IMG/VR virus record: IMGVR_UViG_3300047546_002133
Span: 1 to 22,820 of that record
Length of the DNA stretch: 22,820 nt
Origin: a virus
Strand: one strand, 5' to 3'
A program made the translations under genes and the position numbers. Of the stretch, positions 10,083 to 18,851 are shown piece by piece (the first letter of the stretch is position 1; every line of letters starts with the position of its first letter). Under the pieces are notes generated by a model. The model was not told the DNA's origin, ran no database searches, and saw only the letters and a list, made by a program, of their open reading frames with translations.

Positions 10083-10234
10083 TATTTTTTATCCTTATTC
10101 TTTTTATTATATTCTCCATACTTACCAAGTACGGCCTTTATTGTTCCATCTTTACGTAATCTAACAATCATACCGTCTTTAATCTGTACTGGATTAAACT
10201 TAACGTGCTTCTTATATGATCCGCTTGAAGCCAT
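10082..10234 (-). CDS. 50-residue basic protein
   Basis: ATG 10234 shares a base with the SNase stop (TAATG), and its own TAA shares a base with the next ATG (TAATG). The product is MASSGSYKKHVKFNPVQIKD, followed by GMIVRLRKDGTIKAVLGKYG and a Lys/Asn-rich tail. The VRLRKDGTIKAVLG part could be a small beta hairpin able to bind nucleic acid. The perfect coupling on both sides strongly supports it. Confidence 0.75.
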   Translation of the reverse strand: MASSGSYKKHVKFNPVQIKDGMIVRLRKDGTIKAVLGKYGEYNKKNKDKK

Positions 10235-10620
10235 TATACAAGTTTGACATCAATAGTTGTTTTAGCTAGTTCTGTTTCAGACCATAGCCCAACTTTTGAG
10301 TCTCCTCCGTAGCTTTTAGCAATTCCGTGTCTAAGCATTTGATCGTTAATGCTTTCATCAGAATTTAAATAAACTTTTCCTAAGTATCTTCCATATTTGT
10401 CTGGCTTTGAAACCTCAAGCTTGACTAATTTGCCTTCTAACGTATCAATTAAAAGCTTCTTAGTAGCCTTACCAAACTCTGTATTTTTTTCTGCTGTATC
10501 AACACCAGATAATCTGATACGCTCTTTGTGCCAAACGCTAAATCCTAGATCAATAAATACATCAACGGTATCGCCGTCAACCACCTTGTCTATTTTTGTA
10601 AAATATGTATACATTGCCAT
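10234..10620 (-). CDS. Staphylococcal-nuclease-like (thermonuclease) protein
   Basis: A 128-residue SNase-fold nuclease. VVDGDTVDV (residues 13-21) gives the calcium-binding Asp region, RIRLSGVDTAE gives Arg36, Asp41 and Glu44, and KYGRYLG gives Arg78, so the family's catalytic Arg/Glu/Arg set is intact. It lacks a signal peptide, so it should act inside the cell, for example on host DNA or RNA. An in-frame second ATG is at 10614. No Shine-Dalgarno is present; an extended -10 box ends seven bases before ATG 10620. Confidence 0.88.
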   Translation of the reverse strand: MAMYTYFTKIDKVVDGDTVDVFIDLGFSVWHKERIRLSGVDTAEKNTEFGKATKKLLIDTLEGKLVKLEVSKPDKYGRYLGKVYLNSDESINDQMLRHGIAKSYGGDSKVGLWSETELAKTTIDVKLV

Positions 10621-10638: not shown

Positions 10639-10643
10639 TCCAG

Positions 10644-10717
10644 CGATCCATAACGGACTTGAACCGTCGACCTCTACCGTGACAGGGTAGCGCTCTAACC
10701 AACTGAGCTAATGGACC
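10644..10717 (-). tRNA. tRNA-Asp(GTC)
   Basis: Acceptor GGTCCAT pairs with ATGGATC, discriminator G. D arm TAGCTCAGTTGGTTAGAGC, anticodon stem CTACC/GGTAG around CTGTCAC, and T arm GACGG-TTCAAGT-CCGTT are all present. CCA is not encoded. Confidence 0.95.
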
Positions 10718-10721
10718 ATGG

Positions 10722-10793
10722 AGCCCCATAACAGACTCGAACTGTTGACCTGCCGCTTACAAGGCGGCTGCTCTACCACTGAGCTAACAGGGC
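10722..10793 (-). tRNA. tRNA-Thr(TGT)
   Basis: Acceptor GCCCTGT pairs with ATGGGGC including G:U pairs; the anticodon stem GCCGC/GCGGC encloses CTTGTAA. It reads ACA, an AT-rich codon. Only four bases separate it from tRNA-Asp and from tRNA-Asn. CCA is not encoded. Confidence 0.95.
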
Positions 10794-10797
10794 TTGG

Positions 10798-10870
10798 CTG
10801 GACATCCAGGACTCGAACCTGGGACCTAGAAGTTAACAGCTTCCCGCTCTGCCGACTGAGCTAATGTCCA
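10798..10870 (-). tRNA. tRNA-Asn(GTT)
   Basis: Acceptor TGGACAT pairs with ATGTCCA, discriminator G; the anticodon stem GGAAG/CTTCT encloses CTGTTAA. It is the first tRNA of the three-gene cluster, six bases after the FmdB-like gene, and so is probably cut from the same transcript. Confidence 0.95.
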
Positions 10871-10876
10871 ATGTGG

Positions 10877-11053
10877 TTAGCCTCCCTTAGAGTACCAACC
10901 AGAACCCTTTAATTCAATTCCAAAAGTCCTATATATTTTTTTCATAATTTTATTACATTTTTGACAATTTGGAATTACCTCTGGGTCTAATATTGATCTT
11001 TGAATTTCAATAATTTCTTCAGAACACTCACATTGATATTCATATGTTGGCAT
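10877..11053 (-). CDS. FmdB-like zinc-ribbon protein
   Basis: A 58-residue product: MPTYEYQCECSEEIIEIQ, then PNCQKCNKIMKKIYRTFGIE and KGSGWYSKGG. The opening M-P-T-Y-E-Y-x-C, two Cys pairs (CEC and CQKC) and the end G-x-G-W-Y are the pattern of FmdB/CxxC regulatory-type zinc ribbons, common in actinobacteria and their phages; true function unknown. ATG 11053 shares a base with the previous stop (TAATG). Confidence 0.82.
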   Translation of the reverse strand: MPTYEYQCECSEEIIEIQRSILDPEVIPNCQKCNKIMKKIYRTFGIELKGSGWYSKGG

Positions 11054-11529
11054 TATCTACCTACATGTGTTGGCCAATAGTATTTACATCCTTCACAACA
11101 TGGATCATTAAGAATATCATCATATGCTGACTGAAACATTGCATACTCATAAGAATCTTTTAAATAAAGATTTGCTTGATGTGTAGTTGTAATTCTAGAA
11201 AGTATTGTTTTATCTTTCATCCAAAATGGTCTGCTATTTACTGATATATCATTAAAGTGTTGATAGCAAATATCATCTATGGCTTCCATATTCTTATCAT
11301 ATTTAATTCCACGAACTTTACATTCTTGTGCTATTGCAAATAAATATCTATGTAATATGCCTTCAGATCCAGCCCACATTTTAGTTGCTGGATGATTACG
11401 CCAGCCTTTGCTAATACCAGCTAAAGCAGACAAAATTTGTCTGCCTTCTAATAATTGTTTATTTAATCTTTTTGAATCTAATACGCTGGCGACTTCATGA
11501 AAATCGTCATACGGTAAAAAAGTTTGCAC
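11053..11529 (-). CDS. T4 endonuclease V-related (Pyr_excise / MSMEG_6728-like) protein
   Basis: A 158-residue product starting at GTG 11529, with AGGA about seven bases upstream. MQTFLPYDDF, LDSKRLNKQLLEGRQILSAL, GWRNHPATKMW and LHRYLFAIAQECKVRGIKY follow the MSMEG_6728-type pyrimidine-dimer glycosylase pattern: an N-terminal Thr-Phe, K-R-L-x-K-Q, and N-H-P-A-x-x-M-W. T4 endonuclease V uses the alpha-amino group of residue 2 to open damaged DNA; here residue 2 is Gln, and the activity is unproven. A Cys-rich end (CCEGCKYYW) might bind metal. Confidence 0.8.
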   Translation of the reverse strand: MQTFLPYDDFHEVASVLDSKRLNKQLLEGRQILSALAGISKGWRNHPATKMWAGSEGILHRYLFAIAQECKVRGIKYDKNMEAIDDICYQHFNDISVNSRPFWMKDKTILSRITTTHQANLYLKDSYEYAMFQSAYDDILNDPCCEGCKYYWPTHVGR

Positions 11530-12343: not shown

Positions 12344-12345
12344 AG

Positions 12346-12418
12346 CGCCCCTGGAAGGAATCGAACCTCCGACGCAGGCCTTAGAAGAGCCTCGCTCTAT
12401 CCTCTGAGCTACAAGGGC
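12346..12418 (-). tRNA. tRNA-Arg(TCT)
   Basis: Acceptor GCCCTTG pairs with CAGGGGC (one G:U), discriminator G; the anticodon stem AGGCT/GGCCT encloses CTTCTAA. It reads AGA. It is one base from tRNA-Leu. CCA is not encoded. Confidence 0.94.
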
Positions 12419-12419
12419 G

Positions 12420-12492
12420 TAGCCAAAGTGGGATTCGAACCCACACTTGGAGAATTTTAAGTCCTCTGCCTCTACCGTTGGGCTATTTGGCC
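12420..12492 (-). tRNA. tRNA with TAA anticodon (Leu), short variable arm
   Basis: Acceptor GGCCAAA pairs with TTTGGCT (G1:U72), discriminator A; D arm GCCCAACGGTAGAGGC; anticodon loop CTTAAAA on stem GAGGA/TTCTC; variable loop of only five bases (CAAGT); T arm GTGGG-TTCGAAT-CCCAC. TAA would read UUA (Leu), but bacterial leucine tRNAs normally have a long variable arm. The 5' ten bases overlap the end of the upstream protein gene. Confidence 0.85.
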
Positions 12493-13047: not shown

Positions 13048-13360
13048 CTAACTCCACATATCCTTTTTGCTGCATAATCTTTTTTGCCTCATCTGATATT
13101 TTCAGATTAGCATTTAATTCTTCATCATATTCTACTTCTATTAAATCTTTTTCAAATAGTTCAAGAAGTGCTTCGTCTACCATTTCATGGTGCATTGCCC
13201 ACAATTCTGGTGCAACTTCTCTAGCAAGGTCAGTTATTTTGTATATAAAGTTTCCGTTTTCATCAATACCATTGACTACTACCGCTCCAACTTCGATATA
13301 ATATTCCATTAAATTTTCAAAGTCTTCTTCGCTAAAATCAAAGTCTTCTTCTTTATCCAT
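13028..13360 (-). CDS. Acidic protein, possibly winged-helix-like
   Basis: A 110-residue very acidic product (MDKEEDFDFSEEDFENLMEY). The middle (NGNFIYKITDLAREVAPELW, then DEALLELFEKDLIEVEYDEE) has the feel of a winged-helix: helix, wing, helix. It could mimic DNA or bind a partner. It overlaps the HNH gene by 20 bases. A structured, GC-rich leader lies directly upstream (13381-13480). No family is recognised. Confidence 0.65.
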   Translation of the reverse strand: MDKEEDFDFSEEDFENLMEYYIEVGAVVVNGIDENGNFIYKITDLAREVAPELWAMHHEMVDEALLELFEKDLIEVEYDEELNANLKISDEAKKIMQQKGYVELDDPTND

Positions 13361-13380
13361 CTGCTTCTTTCTTATAGAGA

Positions 13381-13480
13381 CTGCCTGGCCTTTCGGCCAG
13401 GCAGCTGTAACTATTTCCCCACCCCAAGGTACCTACAAGCACGATGGCCAGGACCAGACGTGTCTCACACGGACTCTGGT
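13381..13480 (-). ncRNA. Candidate structured RNA (leader or small RNA)
   Basis: A GC-rich stretch in an AT-rich genome with no open frame. On the minus strand it begins at the predicted +1 (13480) with hairpin one: ACCAGA/TCTGGT, three-base bulge, CGTGT/ACACG, loop GAG (13480-13453). It ends with a perfect 10-bp hairpin with GAAA loop (arms 13395-13404 and 13381-13390). CCTGGCC occurs twice (13452-13446 and 13401-13395), so the last arm (13390-13384) can pair with either copy. A G-rich run (TTGGGGTGGGG) lies between. No T-run follows; the next ATG is 20 bases on. It may be a riboswitch-like leader or a separate RNA. I recognise no known family. Confidence 0.45.
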
Positions 13481-13486
13481 AATTTA

Positions 13487-13492
13487 ATTATA
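13487..13492 (-). promoter_or_regulatory. -10 box before the structured RNA
   Basis: Perfect TATAAT (13492-13487), six bases from 13480, the first base of the hairpin. No good -35 box or TG extension is visible. Confidence 0.45.
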
Positions 13493-13496
13493 CTAC

Positions 13497-13601: not shown

Positions 13602-13614
13602 TTTAACCTCCTTG

Positions 13615-13688
13615 TGCAACAGGTAGGACTTGAACCTACGACTACCGAATTATGAGTTCGGGGCTCTAACCAACTAAGCTACTGTTGC
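13615..13688 (-). tRNA. tRNA-Met or tRNA-Ile (CAT anticodon)
   Basis: Acceptor GCAACAG pairs with CTGTTGC, discriminator A; D arm TAGCTTAGTTGGTTAGAGC; anticodon stem CCGAA/TTCGG around CTCATAA; T arm GTAGG-TTCAAGT-CCTAC. It lacks the initiator marks (unpaired position 1, GGG/CCC anticodon stem), so it is elongator Met or lysidine-modified Ile2. Confidence 0.93.
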
Positions 13689-17810: not shown

Positions 17811-18081
17811 TTATAATGTCCAATAACTCTTTTTTAGCACTAGAACGTTTTTTAGACTCACAGCCATAGCAAACGTTTGAATAGTTATATCTGCTCAAGA
17901 TTTCTCCGCAACCTTTACTTTTACAAATTCTTTTTGCCCCATTACGAATAGCTTTTTTCTCATAGTATTTTTCCATAATCCTTTTGTTTGTAGCAACACG
18001 GCAGCATTCGTCAGAACAATATTTTTGATTATGTGTTTTTTGAACAAACTCAATACCACAATCTTCTCTAGCACAAATCAT
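17788..18081 (-). CDS. Zinc-finger protein with two Cys clusters
   Basis: About 97 residues from ATG 18081 (MICAREDCGIEFVQKTHNQK), chosen because it forms ATGA with the preceding stop. Cluster one: C-x4-C ... YCSDEC-C; cluster two: CKSKGCGEIL ... VCYGC. The linker is basic (NKRIMEKYYEKKAIRNGAKR). It probably binds nucleic acid and may assist the nucleases beside it. The first cluster resembles zinc fingers of the F-x-x-x-x-x-N-Q-K-Y-C type seen in many phage proteins. Confidence 0.78.
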   Translation of the reverse strand: MICAREDCGIEFVQKTHNQKYCSDECCRVATNKRIMEKYYEKKAIRNGAKRICKSKGCGEILSRYNYSNVCYGCESKKRSSAKKELLDIINVIGQTK

Positions 18082-18851
18082 TTTGGAAGATCCAATGCAG
18101 CAATTTGTATATCTCCTACTTCTCCAGACCAACATTCTTTTCTTACTGGACAATACTTACAGGTGCTGCTTGATTTGGTAAATGGTCTTTCTGGAAGAAT
18201 GTCAGACTTATAATTTGCATAAACCTCTCGCATCCAAGCAATAACCTTTTCAATTAATTTTTCATATCTTTCATTCATCACAATTGGCATAATTAAAAGC
18301 TCATTGTTATTTTTATTTTCATACATAACAAATCCCTCTTTTATCTTTTCAACCCACATGTAAAGGAGAAGTTGAATTAAATGTGATGTTGTAGGTGACA
18401 TAGATGCCTGTCTTGCTGAAAATATTTCATCTTTTACAGTTTTAATTTCACCAATGACTTCTTGACCAGTCCATTCAAGAATTAAATCTGCAAATCCTCT
18501 AATTGGTGGATCATTTGAAAGAATTTCTCTTTCTACCTCTTTAAGAACACTTGTTGTTGATAAAAGTGCCTGCAATCTTTCATGTGCCTGTTTGCCGTTT
18601 TCCATATTAGCAATTGCAAGTGCGTCAAAATTATCTTCAAAGTCTGCTCCGTTGAAAGCAATAAACCAATATCTTGGACACATACCATGACCATAGCCAA
18701 CTGTTGATGGAGAAAACGTGTGCTTCTTTTGCCATCTATCTAAATTTCTTCCAACTAAATATGCATCATCAATAATTTTAGCAAAAGTATCTGGATCAAA
18801 GCTGCCTGTTATTTTTTTAAACTTTAAATTTGTTACTAAATCTCTTCCCAT
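18078..18851 (-). CDS. Cas4/RecB-like PD-(D/E)XK nuclease with iron-sulfur Cys set
   Basis: A 257-residue nuclease. Cys58 (GMCPRYWF), then GFADLILEW (Asp122), EVIGEIKTV (Glu135, Lys137) and QLLLYMW (Gln160) form the PD-(D/E)XK core with the RecB-type QxxxY motif. CKYCPVRKEC (Cys231, 234, 240) completes a four-Cys 4Fe-4S site, as in Cas4 and AddB. There are no CRISPR genes nearby, so it serves phage DNA processing, probably 5' end resection with RecA. ATG 18851 shares a base with the previous stop. Confidence 0.87.
   Translation of the reverse strand: MGRDLVTNLKFKKITGSFDPDTFAKIIDDAYLVGRNLDRWQKKHTFSPSTVGYGHGMCPRYWFIAFNGADFEDNFDALAIANMENGKQAHERLQALLSTTSVLKEVEREILSNDPPIRGFADLILEWTGQEVIGEIKTVKDEIFSARQASMSPTTSHLIQLLLYMWVEKIKEGFVMYENKNNNELLIMPIVMNERYEKLIEKVIAWMREVYANYKSDILPERPFTKSSSTCKYCPVRKECWSGEVGDIQIAALDLPK

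Follow-up and report, generated by a model that had tools for sequence, protein, structure and literature searches.

A previously unrecorded structured noncoding RNA in Stanwilliamsviridae and related environmental phages

The 22,820-nucleotide stretch of viral DNA analysed here (positions 1 to 22,820 of the IMG/VR record IMGVR_UViG_3300047546_002133, hereafter the window) carries a structured noncoding RNA that was previously unrecorded and is not a product of chance. Judging from sequence comparison, this RNA is probably a stand-alone gene of approximately 105–115 nt, belonging to a family present across the Stanwilliamsviridae and related environmental phages and acting in trans. Noncoding RNAs of phages are rarely annotated, and the present one is nearly universal in a large, publicly sequenced and culturable group of Streptomyces phages.

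The preliminary description of this DNA had singled out the block as a gene-free and GC-rich region of an AT-rich genome, which was confirmed, as its G+C content is 59% (13381–13480) compared to 36% for the window, and no open reading frame of at least 40 amino acids in the list made for the window overlaps it. The block is located on the minus strand, downstream of tRNA-Met and the large terminase gene (Table 1), and its fold beats 200 of 200 shuffled sequences (z −3.45). Both hairpins that had been proposed were recovered, at 13480–13453 and, with a GAAA loop, at 13404–13381, as were the start of the block at the predicted +1 of a TATAAT box (13492–13487, placing the +1 near 13480) and the distance of 20 nt between the end of the last hairpin and the acidic-protein ATG at 13360. 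Regarding the conserved core, its last ten bases read CTTAGGATGG in the wider family, being common to the Streptomyces-phage copies and five divergent phages, and the second core piece, whose AGTTAC is invariant among the freshwater copies, reads UUAC[C/U]G in the wider family. The core scheme is then CUU[A/G]GG[A/G]UGG, a short linker and the UUAC motif, also written CUUAGGAUGG/UUAC. The terminal hairpin of the window has no T run on its 3' side, where the sequence is CAGTCTCTATAAG, and a terminator search returned no terminator-like site there. Elsewhere in the window, a strong promoter-like TTGACT-17-TATAAT (12343–12315, minus strand) precedes the open reading frame 12292–11759, downstream of tRNA-Arg.

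Table 1. Features of the window related to the structured RNA and its surroundings.
Feature	Position	Strand	Remarks
Structured RNA block	13480 to 13380	minus	GC-rich; between the lysine-rich peptide gene and the acidic-protein gene
5' hairpin	13480–13453	minus	minimum free energy fold
P1, ACCAGA/TCTGGT	13480–13475 with 13458–13453	minus	part of the 5' hairpin
P1b, CGTGT/ACACG	13471–13467 with 13463–13459	minus	part of the 5' hairpin
CCTGGCC	13446–13452	minus	alternative partner of the preliminary description; in the conserved, nearly invariant stretch GTCCTGGCCA
Conserved core, GGTCCTGGCCATCGTGCTTGTAGGTACCTTGGGGTGG	13419–13455	minus	from alignment A1 of freshwater copies
Second core piece, TAGTTAC	13407–13413	minus	just 5' of the terminal hairpin
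Terminal hairpin P3, GCTGCCTGGCC-GAAA-GGCCAGGCAGT	about 13380–13405	minus	GAAA loop in the window
Invariant GTAGTATAAT	13487–13496	minus	contains the −10-like box TATAAT
Acidic-protein gene	13360–13028	minus	downstream of the RNA
Lysine-rich 34-aa peptide gene	13601–13497	minus	upstream; ends at the RNA promoter
tRNA-Met	13688–13614	minus	upstream of the RNA block
Six tRNA genes (Asp, Thr, Asn, Arg, Leu, Met)	10643–10870, 12345–12492, 13614–13688	that of the RNA	three groups
Genes for a CHAP-domain lysin, an SNase-like nuclease, a pyrimidine-dimer glycosylase and a Cas4-like nuclease	2113–2724, 10234–10620, 11053–11529, 18078–18851	minus	

Relatives of the window were searched by terminase and by DNA patterns, resulting in an alignment (A1) of 11 distinct copies, here called freshwater copies according to the kind of metagenome contigs they come from, an origin that is putative for the window itself. 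The copies have lengths of 110, 114, 115 and 117 nt. GTAGTATAAT is identical in all 11, and the remaining invariant parts are ATTACCA, the long core GGCCA[A/T]CGTGCTTGTAGGTACCTTGGG and AGTTAC, in contrast to the variable hairpins. The stem of P3 changes with its pairing kept, as seen in CTGCCTGGCC/GGCCAGGCAG, CTGCCCAGCC/GGCTGGGCAG, CTGCCCAACA/TGTTGGGCAG and CTACCCAGCT/AGCTGGGTAG, and its loop alternates among the stable types GAAA, GCAA and UUCG. Thus, 5 of the 11 pairs of P3 show changes on both sides, with all cells pairing, and compensatory changes were also found in P1b. Over the whole alignment, both sides have changed in 7 of 21 pairs, and 99% of the cells pair, compared to 24–42% when the partners are slid. 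Stops occur in every frame across the homologs, and no coding frame is conserved through the block, whereas a conserved one had been named beforehand as able to overturn the RNA interpretation; together with the differing lengths, the stops in changing frames argue against coding, a leader peptide included. No copy was found near the terminase gene, or in the longer contigs searched, of freshwater relatives with a 69–75% identical terminase, which are fragments.

A covariance model built from the freshwater copies alone (R1) found its best match, of 20 bits, in the Streptomyces phage Gilson, in a gene-free gap of 155 nt between the endolysin gene gp25 and gp26. When this gap was used as a BLASTN query, the element was found in 123 phage records, all of them from Streptomyces phages of the Stanwilliamsviridae. 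As the terminase search returned 127 Streptomyces records (both counts including duplicates), the element is almost ubiquitous among these phages. These copies are 110–120 nt long, typically located between the endolysin gene and a gene with a LamG domain, and the RNA is unannotated in every annotated record examined. In an alignment of 19 of them, changes on both sides were seen in 12 of 26 pairs, and pairing reaches 94%, compared to 36–43% when slid. P1 covaries in these copies, and the outer helix of the 3' hairpin is supported as well, with CGAC/GTCG in some and CGTC/GGCG in others. Two further matches were not accepted as copies: the R1 match at 98769 of Circinus overlaps a gene, the real copy of this phage being at 10672, and that in the Rhodococcus phage Weasels2 (14.8 bits) overlaps the end of a capsid gene. 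Likewise, a pattern scan of bacterial genomes gave no convincing copy among the matches listed, at 80 loci or more.

The reverse comparison was performed with a model built exclusively on Streptomyces copies (R2), whose best nine matches in 377 kb are freshwater copies. R2 reaches the close relatives of the window but fails to reach the copy of the window itself, and its secondary matches in Streptomyces phage genomes (19–31 bits) are plain terminators, picked up mainly via the 3' hairpin. Since a strong 3' hairpin is common to both groups and attracts such terminators, the comparison was redone without it. The windows of the element then took the top rank both ways, out of about 7,600 genomic windows in one direction and 6,600 in the other, and the cross-group alignment scores exceeded those of dinucleotide shuffles by 4.6–6.8 standard deviations. 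For the 5' part, profile HMMs based on sequence only were too weak to reach significance across the groups. The two groups agree mainly in a UAC at the 5' end and in GUC, CUU[A/G]GGAUGG and UUAC[C/U]G. P1 covaries in the joint alignment as well, which was fitted by the model and therefore leans towards structure, and the compensatory changes in P1/P1b and P3 are far above the shuffled and slid controls in both groups. The middle of the core lacks covariation because it hardly varies, so that its fold is a candidate only. Altogether, the homology of the window's RNA and the Streptomyces-phage RNA, though distant, is well supported, and the conservation with covariation anticipated for related phages was found.

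More divergent members were retrieved by a search with the core pattern followed by a combined model (R3), which gave five further distinct copies with 29–48 bits; the other new contigs stay at 18 bits or below, except for a second match in L434 that covers the terminator only. As the core was built into the search pattern, its presence in these copies is not evidence, whereas their context is independent of the pattern. Where the contig reaches far enough, the RNA has a lysin-type gene on one side and, on the other, the gene for a LamG-domain protein that is approximately 25% identical to its homolog gp26 of Gilson. A B12-type ribonucleotide reductase gene is found further upstream in two of the five, and Gilson likewise has a ribonucleotide reductase gene before the endolysin. 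The maintenance of the RNA at a locus whose neighbouring proteins have fallen to such identity implies a function, and, as phages with the RNA grow in laboratory Streptomyces, this function is directly testable.

Concerning known families, the expectation that the block would match none of them stands, since a covariance search against Rfam 15 gave no match at gathering level there. At the curated thresholds, only tRNAs were detected in the window, and relaxed thresholds added only sub-threshold noise at the block and its relatives. No description of the RNA was found in the open literature; a paper on Coruscant, a related phage of the BE cluster, reports many tRNAs and mentions no noncoding RNA (PMC7650747).

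Regarding transcription, all 25 Streptomyces-type copies examined have a full promoter-like sequence of the sigma-70 type, with TTGnnn, a spacer of 17 (once 18) bases and TAnnnT, the latter located 2–3 bases before the modelled start of the RNA. These promoters score 9–11 of 12, compared to 6.0 ± 1.1 at random positions; both promoters and ends were called as consensus matches, and the ends are predicted. Of these two boxes, only the −10 is retained in the freshwater copies, where no match to the −35 consensus was found. The hallmark of intrinsic termination, a G+C-rich hairpin followed by a U run, is likewise divided, as the 3' hairpin is followed by a T-rich, terminator-like sequence in the Streptomyces copies and not in the window. 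The absence of the −35 consensus and the T run in the window's group weakens the reading as a stand-alone gene. A separate −10 box lies 6–10 bases before the ATG of the next gene in most Streptomyces copies, and in many of them, for instance at L115:1330-1380, the 3' strand TTGGCG of the RNA hairpin doubles as the −35 of this gene, which looks leaderless from its sequence. In addition, one and the same terminator hairpin, GGCCGGGTCTTCGGACTCGGCC-TTTTGCG, was seen both at the end of the RNA, in some phages of the Streptomyces type, and as a terminator on its own, in another (L202:3235-3348, L168:2434-2547, L185:4122-4216), suggesting that terminator hairpins are swapped between places.

The genes around the RNA are not constant. 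The acidic-protein gene, before whose ATG the preliminary description had placed the block, is not bound to it, since about 40 relatives have this gene and lack the RNA, the gene being placed directly or a few bases behind tRNA-Met in those inspected. Similarly, two freshwater phages have gp26 homologs that come right after the preceding gene, leaving no space for the RNA. The downstream gene differs between the window's clade and the Streptomyces group, and both types of gene also exist without the RNA. A general link with the lysine-rich peptide was rejected as well, because this peptide family (MANKEQKGNxNxKKEPKxxLKEKR) is widespread at many other loci without the RNA; 210 matching stretches were counted in phage contigs, mostly adjoining a MKAAARRALKWK... 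gene and once a CHAP lysin. An RNA bound to no single neighbour favours a stand-alone element acting in trans, and the context that differs by phage group, together with the promoter-like box of the next gene, makes this the best reading. The RNA would then be transcribed as its own unit during infection. Its hairpins would provide the scaffold and the 3' end, and its invariant core would be the working surface, which may bind a phage or host protein and thereby act in trans. Base pairing by the core would be a less likely alternative to protein binding; matches to the complement of the core show no coding-strand enrichment in four phage genomes. In the freshwater phages, having no obvious terminator, the RNA might be released from a longer transcript of the tRNA-bearing region or stay on it. 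As a tentative and rather doubtful extension, the invariant core could dock on a host or phage machine, such as the RNA polymerase, the ribosome or a defence or regulatory protein; if true, the complex would be a phage ribonucleoprotein of a new class that has persisted in the Stanwilliamsviridae and their distant relatives.

An attenuator acting in cis would explain part of these observations. In such a mechanism, P1 and the core sense a ligand or a protein, and the downstream gene is controlled through the 3' hairpin, a regulated terminator in front of it. This agrees with a riboswitch-like anatomy, in which the peripheral stems vary and the core, itself invariant, is directly followed by a terminator-like hairpin. 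Moreover, a cis role is still favoured in part by the position of the RNA before the same LamG gene in nearly all Streptomyces-type copies examined. We regard this mechanism as unlikely, as most copies have a −10 box dedicated to the downstream gene, the window's clade has a different downstream gene that exists without the RNA, the window's copy has no T run, and an anti-terminator pairing is not conserved. For the latter, a riboswitch-like choice between two partners had been suggested for the 3' arm of the last hairpin, and this arm (GGCCAGG, 13390–13384) is indeed exactly complementary to CCTGGCC at both 13401–13395 and 13452–13446. However, the second pairing has a probability of about 1e-8 in the window, where it costs 11.3 kcal/mol, and forcing it in ten relatives costs 11.9–17.1 kcal/mol. 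In most freshwater relatives, the alternative pairing persists only via G-U pairs; in L009 just 5 of 7 positions pair, and in L099 6 of 7. Among the Streptomyces-phage relatives, no alternative helix recurs at a conserved site. With this cost of 11–17 kcal/mol and no conserved equivalent in the Streptomyces copies, the switch is not supported; a rearrangement to the second partner driven by some factor is possible.

A less probable explanation still is that the upstream lysin transcript simply terminates at the 3' hairpin, with the conserved stretch before it contributing to the processing or stability of this mRNA or of the 5' UTR belonging to the next gene. With its T-rich tail, the hairpin does resemble a terminator, and similar hairpins are found elsewhere in the same genomes, but a promoter-like sequence is dedicated to the RNA, the invariant core exceeds what a terminator needs, the 5' hairpin covaries, and the freshwater copy has neither an adjoining lysin gene nor a T run. 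A site acting at the level of DNA, for packaging, replication origin or protein binding, might be imagined from the nearby terminase gene of the window and the palindromes GGTACC and TGGCCA, and is highly improbable considering the G-U pairs in the stems, the exchange of loops among the RNA-stable tetraloops GNRA and UUCG, the constant strand relative to the promoter and the Gilson copy at about 50 kb from the terminase gene.

Among known systems, the lysM-Prevotella RNA (RF03002) shows a weak similarity to the Gilson copy, which also adjoins a LysM lysin gene; the 15.4 bits against a gathering score of 66.6, with an E-value of 7.6, are at chance level, and this identity was rejected. Riboswitches and attenuators based on transcription termination share the arrangement of a conserved core followed by a terminator-like hairpin, although the present RNA has neither a conserved alternative pairing nor a fixed regulated gene. 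GOLLD and other orphan phage RNAs in Rfam are likewise structured RNAs of large phages, and GOLLD is found near tRNA genes, as is the present RNA in the window's clade; however, GOLLD is far larger, and its model was not among the matches when the window was scanned against all of Rfam. The stable RNAs C and D of T4, small and located among tRNA genes, belong to a different phage group and are alike by description alone. Unlike them, the present RNA comes with a promoter-like box of its own and, in the Streptomyces phages, with a terminator-like hairpin.
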